From the NCBI GenBank assembly GCA_903867305.1, contig CAIPQU010000053.1, positions 1 through 64,000 of the forward strand: a stretch of DNA of 64,000 nt, read 5' to 3'. The position numbers and the translations under genes are program-made. The notes beneath the pieces are model-generated. The model saw nothing but the letters and a program-made list of their open reading frames with translations. It had not been told where the DNA came from and made no database searches. Origin of the DNA: an uncultured beta proteobacterium (GTDB lineage: Bacteria; Pseudomonadota; Gammaproteobacteria; Burkholderiales; Burkholderiaceae). Positions 631-21,258 of this stretch are shown piece by piece. Positions within the stretch are counted from its first letter, which is position 1. Every line of letters starts with the position of its first letter.

Positions 631-2010
631 ATGAAAGCAGAGCAAAATGAGCTGTTGACCCGCATTGGGCTAGGCACGCCTTGCGGTTCTTTGATCCGCC
701 AATATTGGCAACCGGTAGCCTTACTGGATGAGTTTGATCCAGCGCTAGAGCCGAGTATGAAACTGCGTCCAATGAAGGCGGTTCGCCTACTGGGCCAGGA
801 CTTAGTATTGTTCAAGGACGATCAGGGCCGATGGGGTTTAATCGATCGTGATTGCCCGCATCGAGGTGCTGACCTCGCCTTTGGTCGTCACGAGGGTGAT
901 GGTATACGTTGCCCATTTCATGGCTGGAAATTTGACGCTACTGGTCAATGCCTGGAAACCCCTGCTGAACCAGCAGGAAGTAAGCTATGTGAACGCGTCA
1001 AACAACGCAGCTACGAGGTCCTTGAAAAAAGTGGCGTACTCTTCGCTTGGATGGGCGAAGAAGGCAAAGCACCAAAGTTTCCAAACTTTGATTGTTTTGC
1101 AGCCCCATCTACCCATGTGTTTGCTTTTAAAGGGATGTGGCAATGTAATTGGCTACAAGCGTTCGAGGTCGGTATCGATCCAGCACACACTTCTTTTTTA
1201 CACCGTTTTCTGAATGATGAGTCGCTTGATGGGATTGGTGACAACCCAGGCGGAAAACAATTTCGCAGTGCCAGTGCTGGCGACTTCAATGGGGAACGTT
1301 GGCCGATGACACGTATTATGCGTGAGTTCTGTAAACCAGAAATTACGTTTGAGCCTAAGCCTTGGGGCTATCAGATCACAACACTGCGACCGATGACTGA
1401 TGAACTAACTCATGTGCGAGTGACTCATGAAATTTTTCCACAAACCTTTGTGATCCCTCTATCTGAGACATTGACCATTACACAGATGCATGTGCCGATT
1501 GATGATACGCATACCTATTGGTACTCTTTCTTCACTAGTTTTTCCGGCCCTGTAGATAAACAGGCTATGCGTCATCAACGAACGCAATATATCCCTCCTC
1601 CACAATTTATTCCTAAGTCTGGTAGACATAATGATTGGGGCTTTAACCCCAAAGAGCAACGTGAGTCTACTTATCTAGGTATGGGAGAGGATGACATCAA
1701 CGTTCATGATCAATGGGCAGTGGAAAGCATGGGCCCCATTCAGGATCGTACTAGAGAACATTTAGGTACTACAGACAAGGTGATTATGGCCAACCGTCGT
1801 CAATTGTTGCAGGCGATTGAATCCGTTCAATCGGGCGGTTTAGCTCCTTGTATGGCAGATCCAACCTTGTCTGATCAACAACAAGGACCAGATACCATTG
1901 ATGGCATTGCACCAGCAGGTTCTTGGAGTAACTGGTTCAAAGAACAGGTGAATGCCAAACGTGATGGCGCTCCTTGGATTGCGAAAACAAACGAAAAAGT
2001 ACTGACGTGA
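631..2010 (+). CDS. Rieske [2Fe-2S] aromatic ring-hydroxylating oxygenase, alpha subunit (phthalate 4,5-dioxygenase-like)
   Basis: CPHRGADLAFGRHEGDGIRCPFHGWKFD Rieske motif; N-terminus ELLTRIGLGTPCGSLIRQYWQPV typical of the family. Confidence 0.9.
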   Translation: MKAEQNELLTRIGLGTPCGSLIRQYWQPVALLDEFDPALEPSMKLRPMKAVRLLGQDLVLFKDDQGRWGLIDRDCPHRGADLAFGRHEGDGIRCPFHGWKFDATGQCLETPAEPAGSKLCERVKQRSYEVLEKSGVLFAWMGEEGKAPKFPNFDCFAAPSTHVFAFKGMWQCNWLQAFEVGIDPAHTSFLHRFLNDESLDGIGDNPGGKQFRSASAGDFNGERWPMTRIMREFCKPEITFEPKPWGYQITTLRPMTDELTHVRVTHEIFPQTFVIPLSETLTITQMHVPIDDTHTYWYSFFTSFSGPVDKQAMRHQRTQYIPPPQFIPKSGRHNDWGFNPKEQRESTYLGMGEDDINVHDQWAVESMGPIQDRTREHLGTTDKVIMANRRQLLQAIESVQSGGLAPCMADPTLSDQQQGPDTIDGIAPAGSWSNWFKEQVNAKRDGAPWIAKTNEKVLT

Positions 2011-3485
2011 CAGCATTTGCAACATTATGCGGTATTCAGGATGCGGCTCGTTTAGAAGCAATCGAGCGGACTTTGCTACAAATAAAAACCCGTGAATTAG
2101 AATTGGTACGTATCGGATGGTGCGATCTTCACGGTATTGTCCGTGGCAAAACATTAGTAGCCTCCGCTTTACCTAAAACCTTTCATGAAGGGGTGAGTAT
2201 GGTAAGTACACTCATGCTCAAAGACACCTCTGATCGAACCGCTTTTAAGGTTTTTGAGCCAGAAGGTACTTCCTCATTACCTGGCTTTGGTCAAGGTGGT
2301 AATTTACTCTTGCTCCCTGACCCAGATAGTTTTCAGCAATTACCCTGGACTGACTCAACGGGTTGGTTAAGGGCGCAACCTTGGTTTACTGATGGTAGCC
2401 CTGTGGAGTTAGATACACGTCGTATTCTTCAACGTGCACTTCAGAATCTAGGGACTCAAGGCATATCTATGCAATGCGGACTCGAAGTAGAATTCCACAT
2501 CTACAAAATTGAAGATACTAATGCTCAACTCAATCCCGAGTTGGCAAATTGGCCAGGAGATGCGCCAGTTGTCAGTATGATCCATCCAGGATACAGTTTG
2601 CTGACTGAGGAGTGGTTTGACATGGCCGAACCGGCGATGCGAATCGTACAACGTACTGCACAGGAACTTGGATTACCACTATTATCACTAGAAATTGAGA
2701 TGGGACCTAGTCAAGTGGAAGCCGTGTTTGACGTCACGGACGCAATGACTGCTGCCGATAATATGGTTTTATTTCGCAGTGCAGTCAAGCAAGCACTTCG
2801 TCGGGCTGGATATCATGCTACTTTTATGTGTCGACCGCCCTTCCCGAACATCATGTCTAGTGGCTGGCATTTGCATCAGTCTTTAATTGATCAATCTTCT
2901 GGTCAAAATCTATTTCTGCGCTCTTCTCCAGCTAGTGGCTCCACCCCAATGGATGCTGGCTATATCCTTTCAGATCTTGGAGAGCATTACCTAGCAGGAT
3001 TATTGGATCATGCAAGAGGTATGACCGTATTTTGTACACCCACCACCAACGGATTTGGTCGATTTGGCGCAAACGCTTTAGCCCCCCAATCTGTTCTTTG
3101 GGGTCGCGACAATCGTGGTGCGATGCTACGTGTCATTGGAGAATGTGGTGACGCCGGCACTCGAATCGAAAATCGGCTGGGGGAATCAGGAGCGAATCCT
3201 TATCTGTATATCGCCTCACAAATTTATGCGGGACTAGATGGAATCGAACGAAAGCTTCGCGCACCTCCTGCAACCCAAGACCCTTACAACAGTTCTAATA
3301 TGCATTTACCGAATAGCCTTAGTGGAGCCCTCAATGCTTTGAATAATGACGCTGCTTTGGTCTTGGCTTTTGGAAATGATTTTTTGTCGTATTTCACCCA
3401 AATCAAAAGTTCAGAAGCACTGCGATATGAACAGGCAAAGGATAAAAACGACTTCCAGCGCCGTGAATACTTTAGTAGGATTTAA
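2007..3485 (+). CDS. glutamine synthetase-family protein (GlnT / gamma-glutamyl-amine synthetase-like)
   Basis: GS-like N-domain (VRIGWCDLHGIVRGKTL) and catalytic domain (GLEVEFHIY, FMCRPPFPNIMSSGWHLHQSL, ENRLGESGANPYLYIASQIYAGLDGI). GTG start at 2007 overlaps the Rieske stop (GTGA); the ORF track ATG at 1974 is upstream in the same frame. Confidence 0.85.
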   Translation: MTAFATLCGIQDAARLEAIERTLLQIKTRELELVRIGWCDLHGIVRGKTLVASALPKTFHEGVSMVSTLMLKDTSDRTAFKVFEPEGTSSLPGFGQGGNLLLLPDPDSFQQLPWTDSTGWLRAQPWFTDGSPVELDTRRILQRALQNLGTQGISMQCGLEVEFHIYKIEDTNAQLNPELANWPGDAPVVSMIHPGYSLLTEEWFDMAEPAMRIVQRTAQELGLPLLSLEIEMGPSQVEAVFDVTDAMTAADNMVLFRSAVKQALRRAGYHATFMCRPPFPNIMSSGWHLHQSLIDQSSGQNLFLRSSPASGSTPMDAGYILSDLGEHYLAGLLDHARGMTVFCTPTTNGFGRFGANALAPQSVLWGRDNRGAMLRVIGECGDAGTRIENRLGESGANPYLYIASQIYAGLDGIERKLRAPPATQDPYNSSNMHLPNSLSGALNALNNDAALVLAFGNDFLSYFTQIKSSEALRYEQAKDKNDFQRREYFSRI

Positions 3486-3821
3486 ATGATTACCGTTTAC
3501 TTTTTATCCACTGCAAAAGATGGATCCATCATCAATAAAAGCTTTCATACTCAGACTGGTCAAAGTCTCATGGAGGCGGCTATGAAGAATGGTATTCAAG
3601 GAATAGCAGCCGACTGTGGAGGTTTGTTAACCTGTGCTACATGCCATGTCTTTGTGAGTGAGGATTGGTCGTCAAATATACCCAAAGCAAGTGACGAGGA
3701 ATTAGCAATGCTAGAATTTACTGCGATTCCTCCCCAAGAAAATAGCCGATTAAGTTGTCAGATTTTACTGACAAAAAAGCTTGATGGGCTTACCGTAACG
3801 CTCCCTAGCACTCAGTACTAA
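3486..3821 (+). CDS. 2Fe-2S ferredoxin (adrenodoxin/putidaredoxin type)
   Basis: CGGLLTCATCHVFV (CX5CX2C) plus downstream LSCQI; starts immediately after the GS-like stop. Confidence 0.9.
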   Translation: MITVYFLSTAKDGSIINKSFHTQTGQSLMEAAMKNGIQGIAADCGGLLTCATCHVFVSEDWSSNIPKASDEELAMLEFTAIPPQENSRLSCQILLTKKLDGLTVTLPSTQY

Positions 3822-4148
3822 ATTATTTCTTTTTTAGAAAAATATTGTTGATATACACTTCAAGAGTGTTTTTCAAGCCTCAAATCAACTTAAAAAATAA
3901 AATGATGTAAATTTTTATAACTTTTTAAGAGCTTATCTGCCTTCATAAAAATTAATTTAATTATCTTTGTAATAAAAATTACATATTGGGTCCTTTTTAA
4001 TAAAGGCCAGTTTTACACATCATCACTTTTTCATCATTAAGACGTATTAATGAAATAAAAAATCCATTTCAGTGACATCTGTTTGAAATAAAAACTTTCT
4101 AAATTAGTGTTATCCCTAATTTTTAAACCTAAAGTGATTTCTTCAAAC

Positions 4149-6419
4149 ATGAAAAATACTCATCAAATAAAACCTCTTGTTTTTTCCTTAATTGTTGCAG
4201 GTCTTATCTCACCTGTAATTTCTTTTGCCCAACAAGTAACTGATGTGGGTATTGTTAATGCAACTGGAGGGGCATCTTCATCTCAAGATAATCCTAAAAA
4301 TTATCCATCTGTTGTAACTTCGCCTGTTCGCAATACTGTAGAAGTAGCACGTCCCGTTGCCGAACTCAGTAAAGAGTATATTGACAACTTTACGGCACCA
4401 ACTGCAACCTTTGCTGATCGTGCAAGTATGCTACCAGGGGCATATGGATTTAGTTCCAATGGGTCAGGTGGTGGTGATGAAAAAATTTGGTTTAGAGGCT
4501 TTAAAGACGGCAACTTTACCATGACATTTGATGGTATCCCTTTTAACGATACCAATGACCCAACTCACCATTCACAAGTCTTTTTCCCAGGACCATTCAT
4601 CGGTGGGATTACATCTGACCGGAGTCCAGGAACTGCATCCTCTCTTGGACCTGCGAATTTTGGCGGTACTGTAGGATTATTATCAAAGCCGATCGATAAC
4701 ACTCAACGTATAACTGGTGCTTATACCTACGGTAGTTTCAATACTCAGCAAATGGAGGCTGAATATGCATCTGGCTATACAAGTGAAACCTCCAATACTA
4801 AATTTTTAATTAATGCGCATCACTTTACATCTGATGGTGCTCAAAGTTTTAATCCTCAATATAGAGACGGGGCTAGCTTTAAGATTGAATCTGCACTCAC
4901 CTCTGATACTTTATTAACAGCTTTCTCTTCTTGGACACATTACCTCTCTAATGCAGGTGGGGGGGGGAATCCGGCAACCTTTGCATGCTACAACACGGGC
5001 TCTATTACTGGATGCTCTCCTAAAGCAAATTACATGTATGTCAATAGTAATGACCCAACACGCCTCGATAACATGGCGTACTCTCATTATGATGTTACAG
5101 CTTCTTTTAATTATTTAGGATTTAACTCTAACCTAGGCAATGGCTGGAAACTCGATAATAAAACGTATTTTAACTACTATAGTAACCAACAAAATTATGC
5201 TGTTTTTAAAGCACCGGATGCCTTATATAGCGCAACGGCTACAAAAGCGGGCATGGATAAATTAAATTCTTATCATACCTTAGGTAATATTTTGCGGCTG
5301 ACAAAAGATACTGAATACGGTATTTTAAGAACTGGTATACAGGTAGAAAGAGCTGATACGCCTAGACATCAAATATATGCGAATCCTGTGACAGGTGGAT
5401 ATACGAACCCTAATGGAGCTAGTGCCGGCGGTGTTTCTTTTAACGAAGACTTTGTGACGACCACAATTCAACCTTACGTTGAATTTGCAGCTAAAGTAAC
5501 TGACAAACTTACTGTTACACCAGGTGTTAAATATAATTCTTATCGAATGGATTTAACTCAATTTGCTGATGATGGAACTGTTGGAAATCTCAATGGTCAG
5601 CCCTATGTACAACATAGCGCAACATACACTGACGTTTTACCATTTTTAGATGCGCGTTATATGCTACAAAAAAATTGGTCAGTCTATGCCCAATACGCAA
5701 CTGGGGATGTCATCCCTCCATCCAGTGTATTTGATTCAACAGGTGCAAACGTTTCAGTATTGCCATCTCCCATTAGAACAACAACGAATCAAATTGGAAC
5801 AGTTTATCAAGCAAGAGATTTTATGGTTGATGCAGATATTTTCATTACAAAAGCAGATAGAAGCTATGCCTCTGCAACTGACCCGAACAATCCCTCTTAT
5901 AAATATTTTTATGCAGCACCCTCTACAACCTATAAAGGTATAGAAGTTTCAGGTAATGTGGTACTTGGTGGCGGGTTTAATCTCTATGCTAATGCTATGG
6001 CATATAACGCAACATACGATACCACAGGCTTAGCTGTAGCTAACGTTCCAAGTGATATGGAATCTGTAGCTCTATTTTATAGAGAGGGTCCTTGGGCACT
6101 TGGTGGAACAGTGAAACGAATTGGTCCACAATACCAAGACAACACGAATGTGAGTCAATCTAACGAATGGTATAGCTTAGACCCAATTTTTATTACTAAT
6201 ATTTATGCCAATTACACCTTTAATAACATTCCATCCTATGCTAAAGGTGCGAAGATACGTTTTGGAGTTAACAACTTATTCAATAAAAATTACTTGATTG
6301 CCTTCACTCCTGTATCAACTTCACAAAGTGCTTCGCATCAACCTGGAGCAGCTGCGAATGATCAAGTGACGTATACGTCTGGTATCGCTGCTTATACAAC
6401 TCTCATTGTGGACTTCTAA
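4149..6419 (+). CDS. TonB-dependent outer membrane receptor
   Basis: Signal peptide MKNTHQIKPLVFSLIVAGLISPVISFAQ; plug-like FRGFKDGNFTMTFDGIPFNDTNDPTHHSQVFFPGPFIGG; C-terminal beta-barrel; adjacent ExbB/ExbD/TonB. ORF track gives 4107; 4149 gives a clean signal peptide. Confidence 0.9.
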   Translation: MKNTHQIKPLVFSLIVAGLISPVISFAQQVTDVGIVNATGGASSSQDNPKNYPSVVTSPVRNTVEVARPVAELSKEYIDNFTAPTATFADRASMLPGAYGFSSNGSGGGDEKIWFRGFKDGNFTMTFDGIPFNDTNDPTHHSQVFFPGPFIGGITSDRSPGTASSLGPANFGGTVGLLSKPIDNTQRITGAYTYGSFNTQQMEAEYASGYTSETSNTKFLINAHHFTSDGAQSFNPQYRDGASFKIESALTSDTLLTAFSSWTHYLSNAGGGGNPATFACYNTGSITGCSPKANYMYVNSNDPTRLDNMAYSHYDVTASFNYLGFNSNLGNGWKLDNKTYFNYYSNQQNYAVFKAPDALYSATATKAGMDKLNSYHTLGNILRLTKDTEYGILRTGIQVERADTPRHQIYANPVTGGYTNPNGASAGGVSFNEDFVTTTIQPYVEFAAKVTDKLTVTPGVKYNSYRMDLTQFADDGTVGNLNGQPYVQHSATYTDVLPFLDARYMLQKNWSVYAQYATGDVIPPSSVFDSTGANVSVLPSPIRTTTNQIGTVYQARDFMVDADIFITKADRSYASATDPNNPSYKYFYAAPSTTYKGIEVSGNVVLGGGFNLYANAMAYNATYDTTGLAVANVPSDMESVALFYREGPWALGGTVKRIGPQYQDNTNVSQSNEWYSLDPIFITNIYANYTFNNIPSYAKGAKIRFGVNNLFNKNYLIAFTPVSTSQSASHQPGAAANDQVTYTSGIAAYTTLIVDF
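4959..4967 (+). repeat. homopolymeric G9 tract within the TonB-dependent receptor ORF
   Basis: gcaggtGGGGGGGGGaat read directly; encodes Gly-Gly-Gly in frame. Confidence 0.9.
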
Positions 6420-6470
6420 TCGACAATTTATTTTTAATGTGTAATTTAAAGTCTACCGAAAAGGATTTGT

Positions 6471-7094
6471 ATGTCTATTGAATTTCTACTCCGTCTAGCG
6501 AATGAATCAGGCGGAGTAATTTACCTGATGTTTGTTTTACTATTTATTGCAATATTTATCATCATTGAACGTCTAAAATTTCTAGCGGATATGAAAAAGG
6601 TAGGTTTGCAATTGATTACCTTGTGCCAAAACTCAAAGTCAGTTAACAAAGAAAGTCTTCAAGCCTTCCAAGAAAGTCATGCTGAAATTCCATCAGTAAG
6701 ATTAGTCAATGTTGCTTTAAGGGAGAATATTGAAGGCCTTACTCGCGAAGATCTTGATGGCAAACTTGAGGAGGAAATCATGCATCAAGTTCCACGGCTT
6801 GATCAAACCGTTTGGATGCTGGATACCATTATTACCTTAGCTCCCCTTCTTGGATTATTTGGAACCATTATCGGTATGTTTAATGCCATGTTTGGTCTAA
6901 CAGATATTCAGAACTCCGCTGCACAAATTTCAAGTGGTATTTCTGAGGCGCTAGTATCGACGGCATTTGGTTTAATTATTGCGATGTTAGGCCTTAGCTT
7001 CTTTAACAATATTAATACGCAGATTCGATTTCTCGTGCATCAAATGGAGACTTTAAAAGTTATGATTGTCAATCGTAGACATCTATTTGAATAA
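6471..7094 (+). CDS. exbB: MotA/TolQ/ExbB proton channel family protein
   Basis: Three-TM architecture and LDTIITLAPLLGLFGTIIGMFNAMFGLT...ISEALVSTAFGLIIAMLGLSFFN signature. Confidence 0.9.
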   Translation: MSIEFLLRLANESGGVIYLMFVLLFIAIFIIIERLKFLADMKKVGLQLITLCQNSKSVNKESLQAFQESHAEIPSVRLVNVALRENIEGLTREDLDGKLEEEIMHQVPRLDQTVWMLDTIITLAPLLGLFGTIIGMFNAMFGLTDIQNSAAQISSGISEALVSTAFGLIIAMLGLSFFNNINTQIRFLVHQMETLKVMIVNRRHLFE

Positions 7095-7108
7095 TTAGGA
7101 TAAATCAC

Positions 7109-7504
7109 ATGCGTTATCTTGAAGTTAAAAAACCAAGGATAGAAATCATTCCCATGATTGATATCATGTTATTTCTGCTGGTATTTTTTATTATGTTGGC
7201 ATTAAAGATGATCCCTACAAGTGGACATGTGACCAAATTACCTACTAGCTCAACTGCCACCACAATTCCTAATCCAAAGTTAACCGTTGAAATCCTTCCT
7301 ACCGGTGAAATTAATGTCGATAGTAAATCAAGTTCTATAGCAGGATTAACCGATTACTTAAAACAAAGAGATGCCAGTAAAATTTCCGTTACTTTAGTCG
7401 GTGCTGATACGGTTTCATTGCAACAGTTGATGTCAGTCATTGATGCGATTAAATCTGGTGGGGCATCTCAAATATCTCTTGCAGCAATTAATCGATCAAA
7501 ATAA
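7109..7504 (+). CDS. exbD: ExbD/TolR family biopolymer transport protein
   Basis: IEIIPMIDIMLFLLVFFIMLAL single-TM signature with conserved Asp; downstream of exbB. Confidence 0.9.
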   Translation: MRYLEVKKPRIEIIPMIDIMLFLLVFFIMLALKMIPTSGHVTKLPTSSTATTIPNPKLTVEILPTGEINVDSKSSSIAGLTDYLKQRDASKISVTLVGADTVSLQQLMSVIDAIKSGGASQISLAAINRSK

Positions 7505-7507
7505 TAA

Positions 7508-8212
7508 ATGACTATGCAATTTTCGATGGCTTCAGCTCATCAAAATCGCCATCCATTTTCTAAGCTAGATATTTATTTTTTTGCAATAGCTATTGAAGCC
7601 ATTCTTATTGGATTTGTTGTATTTATTTTAATGAGCAAATTTTTACGAACTTCATCTACTGAAAATACCATCAATTTAGTCTTCAATGAAATTTCTCAGG
7701 AAAAACTCCAAGAACCTGAAAAACCAAAAATAATTCCCAAACCTATTAAAGAACAGATTAAAACACCTGTAAAACCAAACACCCCTAAGGTCACTCCCGA
7801 CATACCAAGGTCTGAAATGCCATCAGAAAATCAAGCCTCCCCAATTCCTCACAATCCAAGCCATATTTCTGAAAGCACTGCATCCACGACTAGCCAAGCA
7901 TCATCCAATACGACAAATAAACCTGACCCCATGTCTCTTTATAGAGGACAAGTCAATGCAGCGATCCAAGCTGCAACTGTTTGTACGTCAGTCGCAAAAG
8001 ATATGAACCTCGTTGGTAAAACGAGAATTCAATTTAATTTAAAAGACTCTCAACAATCAGGTGCTAGTATCATGACAACTAGTGGTATTCCAATGTTAGA
8101 TAGATCGGCCATGACTGCTGTTCAAATAGCAAAATACCCGAAGCCACCTGAAGAATTTGTGGGTGAAAACAAGGTAATGACTGTTTTAGTGAATTTAAAT
8201 TGCAGTAATTAA
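7508..8212 (+). CDS. tonB: TonB-family energy transducer
   Basis: N-terminal TM, Pro/Lys-rich spacer (EPEKPKIIPKPIKEQIKTPVKPNTPKVTPDIP), C-terminal TonB-like domain. Confidence 0.85.
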   Translation: MTMQFSMASAHQNRHPFSKLDIYFFAIAIEAILIGFVVFILMSKFLRTSSTENTINLVFNEISQEKLQEPEKPKIIPKPIKEQIKTPVKPNTPKVTPDIPRSEMPSENQASPIPHNPSHISESTASTTSQASSNTTNKPDPMSLYRGQVNAAIQAATVCTSVAKDMNLVGKTRIQFNLKDSQQSGASIMTTSGIPMLDRSAMTAVQIAKYPKPPEEFVGENKVMTVLVNLNCSN

Positions 8213-10569: not shown

Positions 10570-11778
10570 ATGAATACACCAAGACCTAATATCCTTATTG
10601 CTGGCGCTGGGCCCGTTGGCCTCGTTGCCGCAAATATTTTTGCAGATGCAGGTATCTCCGTCGCCGTTTTTGAATCTGACGCTGAACTTCCAACAACACT
10701 GCGTGCATCTACTTTTCAACCATCCACTTTAGACCTACTCGATCGTTTCAATATCAGTGAAAAATTAATTGCGTTAGGCTTAAAAGCACCTCGCTTACAA
10801 TATCGCGACCGTCAAGGTTGGATGGTTGAACTTAATTTTGGATCGATTCGTGAGGATACTTCTCATCCTTACCGTGTGCAATGTGAACAATACAAACTAA
10901 CAAAACTATTAGCTGATCGATTACAACAATTCCCTCACGCACAAATACATTTCTCCAGCCAAGTTACTGAAGTTTCACAAACGAGTGATTCAGTTTCTAT
11001 ATCACTGAAAGGTCCAACAGGTTCTTCACAAATCACAGGTGATTGGTTAATTGGAGCCGATGGAGGTCGTAGTTTGATTCGTGATGCTCTAGGGATCAAG
11101 TTAGGCGGATTTACATGGCCAGAACGGTTTTTAGTTGCTAGCACACCCTTCGATTTTCCTTCAGTCATTCCGAATCTATGTGAAGTTAGTTATTTTGCGG
11201 ATCCTGAAGAATGGTTTTTCTTACTCTACGTCTCTGGACTATGGCGAGTCATGCTCCCCATCGGTTCTCATGAAAATGATACGGAAGCTTTATCAGATGC
11301 TAGTATCCAAAAAAGACTACAACGTATATATGCCAAGTCTGGGGATTATGAAATCAAACATCGAACAGTCTATAACGTGCATCAACGTGTTGCGGAACGT
11401 TATCGTGACGGTCGTGCTTTTCTAGCTGGAGATGCGGCTCATCTCAATAATCCACTTGGGGGCATGGGAATGAATGGTGGTATTCATGATGCCTTTTTGC
11501 TGGCAGATCTATTAGTGAAAGTACAAAAGGGTGAAATCCCCCCCTCAATACTTGACCATTACGAATCTCAACGACGACCTATCGCACTCGAATATGTCAA
11601 TACGATTACGATCGCTAACAAAAACAATCTTGAAACAAAAGATCCAGTAGAACAAAAAATCTGGCGTAAGAAAATGATGGAAATTGCAGCTGATCCATCT
11701 CTTGCTCGCGAGTATTTATTAAAAGTATCCATGATCGCTAGTTTAAGAAAGCAGGAGCAAGCAATATATGCATCATAA
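10570..11778 (+). CDS. FAD-dependent aromatic monooxygenase (PheA/TfdB/MhpA-like fold)
   Basis: GAGPVGLVAANIFADAGISVAVFE, DWLIGADGGRSLIRDALG, RAFLAGDAAHLNNPLGGMGMNGGIHDAFLLADLL. Confidence 0.9.
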   Translation: MNTPRPNILIAGAGPVGLVAANIFADAGISVAVFESDAELPTTLRASTFQPSTLDLLDRFNISEKLIALGLKAPRLQYRDRQGWMVELNFGSIREDTSHPYRVQCEQYKLTKLLADRLQQFPHAQIHFSSQVTEVSQTSDSVSISLKGPTGSSQITGDWLIGADGGRSLIRDALGIKLGGFTWPERFLVASTPFDFPSVIPNLCEVSYFADPEEWFFLLYVSGLWRVMLPIGSHENDTEALSDASIQKRLQRIYAKSGDYEIKHRTVYNVHQRVAERYRDGRAFLAGDAAHLNNPLGGMGMNGGIHDAFLLADLLVKVQKGEIPPSILDHYESQRRPIALEYVNTITIANKNNLETKDPVEQKIWRKKMMEIAADPSLAREYLLKVSMIASLRKQEQAIYAS

Positions 11779-12751
11779 ATTCATTTCCATGATCAATAAG
11801 TTCATCTTATTATTAATCCTAGGAGCTCTTTCAGGAGGAGCCATTGCTGCAGATTACCCCAATAAGCCCATAGTGATTATTACGCCCTTCCCCCCTGGAA
11901 GTACCAGCGATTTAATACCACGTTTAGTTTCCCAGGTAATGACTAAATCGATGGGAGTCACAGTATTAGTCGAGAACCGCCCCGGCGCGAATGGCTCGGT
12001 AGGCGCCAACAAAGTGGTCAATTCACCTGCCGATGGCTATACAGTCCTTCTAGCGACCACAGGAGTTCTTGCGATCAATCAATGGATCTATCCCAAACTA
12101 TCTTACTCACCTGAAAAAGATTTTGATCCTGTGATCAATGCAGCAGCAACGCCCAATATGATTGTGGTCCACCCCAGTGTTAAAGCAGATAATCTCAATG
12201 AATTGATTGCACTGGCCAAATCTAAACCTGGTGAGTTGAGTTTTGCCTCAGCCGGTAACGGGAGTACAAGTCATCTTTGTGGAGAAACACTGAAGGCGAC
12301 TACTGGTATCGATATCGTTCATATCCCCTACCAAGGTCCAGCGCCAGCCATGCAAGATGTTCTTGGAGGTCGTGTTTCGATCATGTGCGATAACTTCTCG
12401 AATGTAATACAACATGTTCGAGCAGGCCGCCTCAAAGCAATTGTGATCACGAGTAAGGAAAAAAGTGCAAAGTCTGGAGATATTCCAACCTCTGGAGATC
12501 TTGGCATACCGGATCTTGAGGCTGGTATTTGGTATGGCTTTGTCGTTCCAGCAGGTACGCCTAAAGATATCATCTCAAAGCTAAATATGGAGTTTGCTAA
12601 AGCTTTACATGACCCAGAGGTCACTCAAAAGCTAGATTCTATTGGACTTAAAATCATTGCAGACCAACCTGAAGTGTTCCGAAATTTTATTGCCAAAGAA
12701 GCTACCCGAATGCAAAAAGTAGTTAAGGCATCCGGTGCTCAAATCAATTAA
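11768..12751 (+). CDS. Bug-family (tripartite tricarboxylate transporter) substrate-binding protein
   Basis: Signal peptide; YPNKPIVIITPFPPGSTSDLIPRLVSQ...VENRPGANGSVGA; HIPYQGPAPAMQDVLGGRVSIM. Confidence 0.9.
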   Translation: MHHKFISMINKFILLLILGALSGGAIAADYPNKPIVIITPFPPGSTSDLIPRLVSQVMTKSMGVTVLVENRPGANGSVGANKVVNSPADGYTVLLATTGVLAINQWIYPKLSYSPEKDFDPVINAAATPNMIVVHPSVKADNLNELIALAKSKPGELSFASAGNGSTSHLCGETLKATTGIDIVHIPYQGPAPAMQDVLGGRVSIMCDNFSNVIQHVRAGRLKAIVITSKEKSAKSGDIPTSGDLGIPDLEAGIWYGFVVPAGTPKDIISKLNMEFAKALHDPEVTQKLDSIGLKIIADQPEVFRNFIAKEATRMQKVVKASGAQIN

Positions 12752-13527: not shown

Positions 13528-14493
13528 TCAGTTAATCTTAATTTGCTTCGATTTAGTAATGTCTGTCCAACGCTTCGTATCATCTTGAACAAATTTTCCA
13601 AAATCATCAATTGATAAGTTAATAATTTCAGCGCCTTGAGCACTCAATTTTTCCTTCACCTCATTATCCGAGAGTGCTTTATTAACTTGATCATGCAAAA
13701 GGACAATTTGATCTTTTGGTGTGCCTTTCGGAAATGCAAAGCCAAACCAATTGGAAGTGACAAAACCGGTAATACCCTGCTCTTCAGCAGTAGCTACCTT
13801 AGGTAATAATGCCGACCTTTTCAATGAGCTAACAGCGAGCGGACGTAATTTACCCGACTGGATCCCACTTAAGGCGGTTGGAAGAGCCGCAACAATGAGA
13901 TCAATATTTCCAGATTGAAGTGCAAAATTTGCTTCACTCATCCCTTTGAATGGCACATGTGTCAATGTAATCCCTGCAGAAGCATTAAAACGTTCAGTCA
14001 CAATATGGTTCGTACTACCAACGCCAGCTGATCCATAATTGAGTTGATTAGGATTACTTTTAGCAGCACTCACTAAATCTTTTAAACTCATATATGGTGA
14101 TTCAGTACGTACGAGTATCACAAATGGGGTTTGTGTAATGAATGCACTTGGCACTAAGTCACTATTAATATCCCAAGTTAGATTATTAAATAATCCAGGT
14201 AACATGGCGTACGTTGCATCAATTAATACCGCCATTGTCCCATCAGGTGGTTGATGAGCAACATAGTCAAATGCAATTCTTCCACCAGCACCCGTTTTAT
14301 TTTCAACAATAATAGTTCTACCAGTTTGTTCACTGACTTTTTGAGAAACTAGTCTTGTATAGGTATCTGAGGCGCCTCCAACAGCAAAAGGTACAATAAT
14401 TTTAAGGGGCTTATTATTTTGAGAGTAACTAGGTAGCGCTAATGACAAAGCACATCCTGAAATAAGCCCAACTATCCATCGCTGAATCATCAT
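13528..14493 (-). CDS. Bug-family substrate-binding protein
   Basis: KPLKIIVPFAVGGASDTYTRLVSQKVSEQTGRTIIVENKTGAGGRIAFDYVA; signal peptide. Confidence 0.9.
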   Translation of the reverse strand: MMIQRWIVGLISGCALSLALPSYSQNNKPLKIIVPFAVGGASDTYTRLVSQKVSEQTGRTIIVENKTGAGGRIAFDYVAHQPPDGTMAVLIDATYAMLPGLFNNLTWDINSDLVPSAFITQTPFVILVRTESPYMSLKDLVSAAKSNPNQLNYGSAGVGSTNHIVTERFNASAGITLTHVPFKGMSEANFALQSGNIDLIVAALPTALSGIQSGKLRPLAVSSLKRSALLPKVATAEEQGITGFVTSNWFGFAFPKGTPKDQIVLLHDQVNKALSDNEVKEKLSAQGAEIINLSIDDFGKFVQDDTKRWTDITKSKQIKIN

Positions 14494-18664: not shown

Positions 18665-19633
18665 TCATTCCGCTTTAATTTTTGCACTTTTAGCAACTTT
18701 TGCCCACTTGAGGGTTTCCTCTGAGACAAAGCGCTCAAACTCCTTACGACTTATAGGCATGACTTCTGCACCCTCAGCAATAAACCTGTTTTTGATTTCT
18801 GTTTCCGCCAATATTTGATTACATTCAACATGTAGCTTATCTAGTAGTTCTATTGGAACACCCGCAGGGGCTGATATTCCCCACCAATTCATCGCCTCAG
18901 CATCAATCCCCTGCTCTTTGAGAGTAGGTACATTAGGCAATAATGCAACTCTTTGTCTACCAGCGATCGCCAATGGACGAATTTGCCCTGACTTAATAAA
19001 ATTTTGCATTTGAATCAAGCTCCCTAAGGATATCTGTACATGACCAGCAACCGTATCAACTACCGCTGGTCCACCACCTTTATAGTGAACTAAAGAAATA
19101 TCAGCATTCGTTTTCATCATGAATAACTCAATCGCAAAATGCTGAAAACTACCAACCCCAGCAGTTCCAAAATTCGTTTTATTCGGATTTTTTTTAGAGT
19201 ATTCAATGAGCTCTTTGATATTGTTGACGGACAATTGATTATTGACGACAAGCACACTTGGCCCAATCCCCAGCATGGCAACGGGAGCAAATGCCTTATC
19301 TGGGTCATACGCTAATTTCATGATCGAGGAGTTCATAGCAAAACTCGATGAAATCAGCAATAAAGTATTCCCATCAGGTTCGGAGCGCGCTACAAACTCT
19401 GCCCCCACAGAACCTCCTGCACCAGGTTTATTTTCGACGATGACGGAACGCTTTAACTTTAAGGATAATTGTTGCGCAATCGCTCGTCCAACAATATCAT
19501 TACTCCCACCTGGGGCAAAGGGGACGACTAACTTGATGGTCTTACTCTCCTGAGCATCTACCCTAAATATCAAAACGCACAAAAATAGAAATAGTAATTG
19601 AATGAACTTCAAGTAAAAGTCATTATTTTTCAA
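18665..19633 (-). CDS. Bug-family substrate-binding protein
   Basis: KTIKLVVPFAPGGSNDIVGRAIAQQLSLKLKRSVIVENKPGAGGSVGAEFVARSEPDGNTLL. Confidence 0.9.
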   Translation of the reverse strand: MKNNDFYLKFIQLLFLFLCVLIFRVDAQESKTIKLVVPFAPGGSNDIVGRAIAQQLSLKLKRSVIVENKPGAGGSVGAEFVARSEPDGNTLLLISSSFAMNSSIMKLAYDPDKAFAPVAMLGIGPSVLVVNNQLSVNNIKELIEYSKKNPNKTNFGTAGVGSFQHFAIELFMMKTNADISLVHYKGGGPAVVDTVAGHVQISLGSLIQMQNFIKSGQIRPLAIAGRQRVALLPNVPTLKEQGIDAEAMNWWGISAPAGVPIELLDKLHVECNQILAETEIKNRFIAEGAEVMPISRKEFERFVSEETLKWAKVAKSAKIKAE

Positions 19634-20253: not shown

Positions 20254-21258
20254 TTGAGACAAATCTGTTCTATGTTGACCTTGCTAACAAAAATTCACCG
20301 CAACTTCATTCTTTTGGGGCTTATATTGATGGGCATATCAACGATTGCTCATGCGCAGGAATTCCCTCCTAAAAAAACGATCACCATGTATGTCGGGTTT
20401 GCTGCAGGTGGAGGCTCTGATACCGCAGCGAGGATTATCGCTAAGAAACTCTCGGATAATATCGGTCAAACGATTATTGTGGAAAATCGTCCTGGCGCTG
20501 GTGGCAATATCGTTCATGGTACGGTTGCTACAGGACCATCAGATGGTTCAGTGATTTTATTGGGTTCGATTGGTCCCCTGTCCATCGCTCCTTTCTTGAT
20601 GAAACTCAATTACGATCCCATCAAAGATCTAGCTCCTCTCTCAATGGGTGTTGCCTTCCCCAATATTTTGGTGGTTTCTAGTGATTCATCGATTAAAAGC
20701 CTGAAAGATTTTATTGATCAAGCGAAAAAAGAACCTGGAAAAGTCACCTTCGCATCAACCGGCAATGGCTCTGCATCACACCTTCAAGGTGAGTTACTCA
20801 ATGTTCTTGCAAATATTGACACAACCCACGTCCCTTATAAAGGGGGTAGCCCAGCCATGATTGATGTTCTTGGTGGACGTGTAGATTCTTATTACTCCAC
20901 AATTTCTTCAGCGCAGCCACACATTAAAAGTGGCCGACTCAAGGCGATTGCAGTCACTAGTGCAAAACGTGTCGACGCGCTACCAGATATCCCGACGATC
21001 GCTGAATCTGGCTACCCTAGTTTTGATTCGACGAATTGGTATGCCTTTGTTGCTTCGAGTAAAACCCCAGACCCCCTCTTAGAAAGATGGAATCAAGAAA
21101 TTGTTAAAGTTCTCAAAGATAAGGAAGTGATTCGTGCCTTGAGTGAACATGGTCTTTATCCACTTCCTGGATCACGTGATGATCTCAAAAAGTTTATTGC
21201 AAAAGAGTCGCAAATTTGGAGCAAAATCATTAAGGATAAGCATATTACCAATGATTAA
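20254..21258 (+). CDS. Bug-family substrate-binding protein
   Basis: KTITMYVGFAAGGGSDTAARIIAKKLSDNIGQTIIVENRPGAGGNIVHGTVA; VPYKGGSPAMIDVLGGRV; the actual start may be the internal Met at 20272. Confidence 0.9.
   Translation: MRQICSMLTLLTKIHRNFILLGLILMGISTIAHAQEFPPKKTITMYVGFAAGGGSDTAARIIAKKLSDNIGQTIIVENRPGAGGNIVHGTVATGPSDGSVILLGSIGPLSIAPFLMKLNYDPIKDLAPLSMGVAFPNILVVSSDSSIKSLKDFIDQAKKEPGKVTFASTGNGSASHLQGELLNVLANIDTTHVPYKGGSPAMIDVLGGRVDSYYSTISSAQPHIKSGRLKAIAVTSAKRVDALPDIPTIAESGYPSFDSTNWYAFVASSKTPDPLLERWNQEIVKVLKDKEVIRALSEHGLYPLPGSRDDLKKFIAKESQIWSKIIKDKHITND

Follow-up and report, generated by a model that had tools for sequence, protein, structure and literature searches.

At positions 631–3821 of the window, which here denotes the whole stretch of 64,000 nucleotides that was analysed, three genes are arranged head to tail on the + strand; they encode a Rieske oxygenase, a glutamine synthetase (GS)-like ligase and a ferredoxin (Table 1). 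The GTG start codon of the ligase gene at 2007 and the TGA stop codon of the Rieske gene (2008–2010) form a 4-base overlap, and the ATG of the ferredoxin gene at 3486 follows directly after the TAA of the ligase gene; open reading frames and junctions were found as given in a preliminary description of this DNA. The window starts at base 1 of contig C53, and the visible sequence 5′ of the operon comprises 630 bp. A promoter and terminator scan gave hits that were no more numerous than in shuffled sequences. In comparison with the nearest full relatives, the first two genes are under strong purifying selection (pN 0.07–0.14, pS 0.79–0.84).

Table 1. Position and predicted products of the operon genes and of the ligase entry loop in the window.
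Feature	Position	Strand	Basis
Rieske non-heme iron oxygenase alpha subunit, Group I alpha-only, phthalate-dioxygenase type, 459 aa, ATG	631..2010	+	Pfam, alignment
GS-like organic-amine gamma-glutamyl ligase (GoaS/SadB-like), 492 aa, GTG at 2007	2007..3485	+	Pfam, tree, model
Part of ligase '15th motif' entry loop, K72-DTSDR-T78	2220..2240	+	Alignment; K72 at NpaA1 Phe75 position
Plant/putidaredoxin-type [2Fe-2S] ferredoxin, 111 aa, ATG, cysteines 44/50/53/91	3486..3821	+	Pfam, PDB matches

The Rieske protein was matched by PF00355 (1.3e-18) and LigXa_C (PF19301, 1.4e-23) and the ferredoxin by Fer2 (PF00111, 3.4e-8), in all cases above the curated cut-offs. The Rieske ligands C75/H77/C94/H97, the bridging D183 and the iron ligands H186/H191/D360, as assigned by alignment, are intact. 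The predicted AlphaFold model of the Rieske protein was too poor to use (pLDDT 44), and its nearest solved structures in the PDB are phthalate-type oxygenases. These matches, together with the absence of a beta subunit from the window, bear out the earlier assignment of the oxygenase to the alpha-only, phthalate-dioxygenase type. The best PDB matches of the ferredoxin are putidaredoxins (1.6e-25), and it is likely the electron donor to the Rieske protein. When a GAT-1 amidotransferase, a beta subunit and two reductases were used as tblastn queries, none was found within the window, as had been described before; the sole weak 'reductase' match (28%) lies inside a dihydrolipoamide-dehydrogenase gene at 48.5–50.3 kb.

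The ligase contains the catalytic domain Gln-synt_C (PF00120, 1.3e-72, above the curated cut-off) and retains the ATP, glutamate and metal residues E129/E131/E212/E220/H269/H271/R321/R339/R344/R355/E357/R359 (GlnA numbering), so that it could be taken for an ordinary or secondary glutamine synthetase which neighbours the oxygenase by chance. This is scarcely credible in view of its scores, residues, tree position and genomic context. It reached 196.6 bits with the GlnA model and 206 bits with that of type III GS, against cut-offs of 429 and 470 bits, respectively. Asp50 and Glu327 of GlnA, which are ammonium-site/flap residues, are replaced by S and L, a loss also seen in NpaA1, and the adenylylation Tyr of GlnA is not kept. 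In the tree the ligase is located outside GlnA and among organic-amine ligases with a support of 98/98, and the host possesses a canonical glnA shortly beyond the window, with an NtrB-like gene behind it. Canonical GS identity was therefore ruled out, and on sequence grounds the ligase is not a glutamine synthetase; the grouping with canonical GlnA that the preliminary description had named as speaking against its proposal was found neither in the tree nor in the residues. The ligase also carries the extra N-terminal loop ('15th motif') typical of organic-amine glutamyl ligases, which, together with the conserved ATP, glutamate and metal residues and the separation from GlnA, makes up the features of GoaS enzymes. 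The top match of its predicted structure, a monomer model in which the entry loop is of low confidence from residue 74 onward, was NpaA1 (8wwu, E 5.6e-50, TM 0.88), ahead of every true GS. The alignments behind the structure models took in genome loci only, with no plasmid rows.

In the aniline and naphthylamine systems a GS-like enzyme forms a gamma-glutamyl amide and a dioxygenase produces the catechol (PMC11335346, PMC4539516), and in the case of NpaA1 the amide is taken directly by its dioxygenase (PMC11335346). The DcaQ/TdnQ, AtdA1 and NpaA1 systems resemble the operon in that a Rieske dioxygenase is fed by a GS-like ligase that has the same fold (8wwu) and the additional N-terminal loop. 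However, the aniline, chloroaniline and naphthylamine systems have an alpha-beta oxygenase, an FNR-type reductase, a GAT-1 amidotransferase and Phe or Val at the entry loop, and their ligases are 38–40% identical to that of the window. None of the three additional components of the aniline dioxygenases (TdnQTA1A2B/AtdA1-5), i.e. GAT-1, beta subunit and FNR-type reductase, was detected in the window by tblastn, and the ligase belongs to another clade. A reading of the operon as a pared-down aniline dioxygenase is not supported; it falls into an arrangement of its own, sadABD, which is widespread and has been described before.

Deamination of 4-aminobenzenesulfonate is carried out by the Rieske, GS-like and ferredoxin proteins of sadABD (PMC5632844), and the work of Gan et al. 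2012 on them in Hydrogenophaga is cited in PMC5632844 and PMC3704786. The sad operon was fairly conserved across all Hydrogenophaga genomes known at that time, and a natural substrate of the operon was suggested (PMC5632844), and GS-like genes beside similar Group I oxygenases have been noted in Novosphingobium (PMC3704786). Both papers noted this operon, or similar ones, in bacteria for which hardly any contact with sulfanilate, or none at all, is known, and described its natural substrate as unknown (PMC5632844, PMC3704786). With the 4-aminobenzenesulfonate 3,4-dioxygenase system of Hydrogenophaga intermedia PBC the locus shares, by gene arrangement, an operon of Rieske, GS-like and plant-type ferredoxin genes; in the window the Rieske gene is of the Group I alpha-only kind, lacks a beta-subunit partner and is adjoined by a GS-like gene and then by a plant-type ferredoxin gene. 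As judged from these genes, the operon is a new copy of the known sadABD operon type in an unexpected bacterium. The reductase of sadABD (sadC) is said to have been located outside the operon by Gan and coworkers in 2012. On plasmid pSA3 of the sulfanilate degrader Novosphingobium resinovorum SA1 (PMC5632844), an alpha-only Rieske gene (55% identical product) and a GS-like ligase gene (45%) with Lys at the entry loop are adjacent as in the window, but ferredoxin and FAD reductase are encoded in a separate divergent block, a maleylacetate reductase gene is nearby and the ligase belongs to another, clade II-like group.

For the neighbourhood survey 84,980 species genomes were scanned, which revealed 44 related loci, all from Burkholderiales or labelled just Proteobacteria. 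The Rieske ortholog adjoins the GS-like gene in all 40 long loci with uncut sequence, which removes the earlier reservation that neighbours in relatives might lack conserved co-occurrence. A ferredoxin gene is present in 29 of the 44 long loci, and the 4-base overlap was found again in 46 of 68 loci. A ligase relative was detected in 87 of 401 genomes of the family Comamonadaceae (E<=1e-80). Since 23 of the 30 clade I test proteins lacked the scan peptides, Hydrogenophaga non-matches in the scan are uninformative; a genus search starting from an NCBI-labelled Hydrogenophaga MAG covered two genomes.

Two main ligase clades pair with alpha-only Rieske genes, and the aniline-type ligases of alpha-beta oxygenases form a third group on the tree. 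Clade I, to which the window ligase belongs, comprises proteins mostly 52–80% identical to it and a small number of more distant ones with values in the high 40s, and its loci have no adjoining reductase gene. The clade II operons (Cupriavidus, Burkholderia-family genomes and the Polaromonas JS666 plasmid) have the same gene order and Lys at the entry loop, but differ in their ligases (approximately 42–49% identical to the window ligase), in the FAD reductase gene adjoining most loci and, sometimes, in a GAT-1 amidotransferase or a BCAA-type ABC transporter. A dedicated ferredoxin reductase homologous to that of clade II was also sought elsewhere in the host genome and was not found, the best match being NirB.

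The neighbourhoods of the related loci differ. In eight Limnohabitans-like loci (L029, L033–L036, L040, L042 and L044) a divergent gamma-glutamyl cyclotransferase-like gene (PF06094; e.g. L035:6100–6543) adjoins the Rieske/GS-like pair, and the pair and this gene are located between miaB and, where the sequence reaches, ffh, with no ferredoxin gene after them. Beside miaB in the other Comamonadaceae tested no PF06094 homologue was found, distant homologues only being present. The PF06094 protein might trim gamma-glutamyl intermediates. In L005 (9816–15666), L026 and L020 (1618–5841) genes for an ABC transporter, an NMT1-like binding protein and an amidohydrolase follow or flank the operon, with an additional metallo-beta-lactamase-fold protein in L005 and L026, suggesting that in loci of this type the amine may be freed from an imported amide. 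In Polaromonas and Ramlibacter loci (e.g. L018:9843–17342) the region 3′ of the operon encodes an ABM-domain protein, a divergent MarR, a 3-hydroxybenzoate 6-monooxygenase and an FAD oxidoreductase, and the same block holds gentisate 1,2-dioxygenase, FAH and TRAP transporter genes.

According to the ligase alignment, K72 replaces Phe75 of NpaA1, the tunnel bottleneck that is important for aniline. Lys is present at this position in all 120 ligases paired with an alpha-only Rieske protein (76/76 in clade I, 44/44 in the others), while the four ligases with alpha-beta partners and five orphans possess Phe or Val. The positive charge would fit a sulfonate- or carboxylate-bearing substrate, as in sulfanilate, and we infer that the substrate is an anionic aromatic amine, perhaps 4-aminobenzoate-like. 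This is narrower than the unknown amine or acid of the preliminary description. The link between K72 and anions is a correlation across related clades, and the distribution of K72 could reflect a single inherited change instead of repeated selection for anions.

Within the genus of the host the operon was present in one of 186 genomes, i.e. in this one. The best match in the host's own family was 48%; metagenome genomes of Comamonadaceae gave up to 80% and grouped with the window sequence at 100/100, and the cassette is nested among Comamonadaceae sequences. Assembly contamination as the origin of this Comamonadaceae-like operon is unlikely, because aceE of the contig is 86–87% identical to that of same-genus genomes and the GC3 of the cassette is near that of native housekeeping genes; by these measures the contig is native to the host. 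Since synonymous sites are saturated in comparison with the nearest relatives and GC3 fits the host, a transfer, if any, would be old or its true donor unsampled.

Downstream of the operon, positions 4107–8212 encode a TonB-dependent receptor and, after it, an ExbB-ExbD-TonB set of its own. Homologues of this block with about 60% identity were found in four other same-genus genomes only, none of them was seen next to an oxygenase operon, and the block was therefore rejected as a part of the system. Further along the window at least four TctC-type tripartite transporter receptors are encoded within 10 kb (11768–12751, 13528–14493, 18665–19633 and 20254–21258), and the first is adjoined by a gene for an FAD aromatic hydroxylase-like monooxygenase (PF01494; 10570–11778), which scored below the cut-off for the named NCBIfam members shown.

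Taken as a whole, the operon probably represents a sadABD-type amine-activating dioxygenase system by which an acidic aromatic amine would be glutamylated and its ring subsequently oxidised. This chemistry is proposed because the anatomy of the locus matches the aniline and naphthylamine systems. Based on family, residues and fold, the ligase would use ATP to form an amide bond between the gamma-carboxyl group of glutamate and the nitrogen of an acid-bearing aromatic amine. The alpha-only Rieske protein would then dioxygenate the gamma-glutamyl anilide at the nitrogen-bearing carbon and its neighbour, and the diol would yield a catechol with release of the nitrogen, probably as glutamine. Electrons would flow from a reductase encoded elsewhere via the operon ferredoxin to the Rieske protein. 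The mechanism put forward in the preliminary description, in which gamma-glutamylation is coupled to an alpha-only Rieske oxygenase served by a ferredoxin, is thereby largely retained, but not its implied novelty. What is new is modest and concerns the occurrence in this host, the possible protocatechuate outlet and the K72 pattern.

A different substrate class, an aliphatic amine like isopropylamine or putrescine on which the Rieske protein would perform N-dealkylation or side-chain hydroxylation, is improbable. Many Rieske enzymes are monooxygenases, but this one is of the phthalate-dioxygenase type and relatives of the operon adjoin aromatic-catabolism genes. The wider family does include GS-like ligases that act in isopropylamine and putrescine pathways (PMC11335346); the closest characterised relatives, however, use anilines.

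For an aromatic substrate, the catechol would most plausibly enter the chromosomal protocatechuate 4,5-cleavage pathway of the host, whose genome contains a cluster with ligA, ligK and pobA above the curated cut-offs as well as ligB- and ligC-like genes. Protocatechuate formed from 4-aminobenzoate could be consumed by this pathway, so that 4-aminobenzoate, or something closely similar, would be the best guess at a single substrate. The catabolic genes beside many relatives, i.e. those for gentisate dioxygenase, 3-hydroxybenzoate 6-hydroxylase, FAH and a TRAP transporter, suggest a gentisate route instead of a protocatechuate one; all of them are absent from the window. The same glutamylation and Rieske chemistry might thus deliver a product that is cleaved via gentisate, the substrate then not being an analogue of 4-aminobenzoate or sulfanilate. 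A same-strand gentisate dioxygenase homologue is located downstream in 18 of the 44 long loci (the copy in L018 scored 528 bits with a cut-off of 442), and it follows the operon in L009, L010 and L038 with no intervening opposite-strand gene detected, but the operon and the gentisate block are in the majority of loci separated by a divergent MarR gene, and other relatives have an ABC transporter and an amidohydrolase (L005, L026), TRAP genes alone or nothing. The host itself has gentisate-dioxygenase-like genes at C9 and C63, both below the cut-off. Dioxygenation of the ring at the C–N bond, according to textbook chemistry, yields a catechol and not a para-diol, and cleavage via gentisate is on balance rather unlikely.

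The sadABD-type reading with a protocatechuate outlet may be extended, tentatively and with the odds against it, to the whole clade: the clade of the window would be a natural, non-xenobiotic branch tuned by Lys72 to anionic amino-aromatic acids, and a mobile, minimal three-gene cassette that makes use of the aromatic-acid pathway of each new host (protocatechuate meta-cleavage in the present one, gentisate in the case of Polaromonas and Ramlibacter). In the survey ligase relatives were present in about a fifth of the sampled Comamonadaceae genomes, and K72 provides a concrete candidate for a specificity determinant, with anionic aromatic amines as the candidate substrate class. If this is correct, gamma-glutamylation would be a routine activation of natural aromatic amines and not specific to pollutants.
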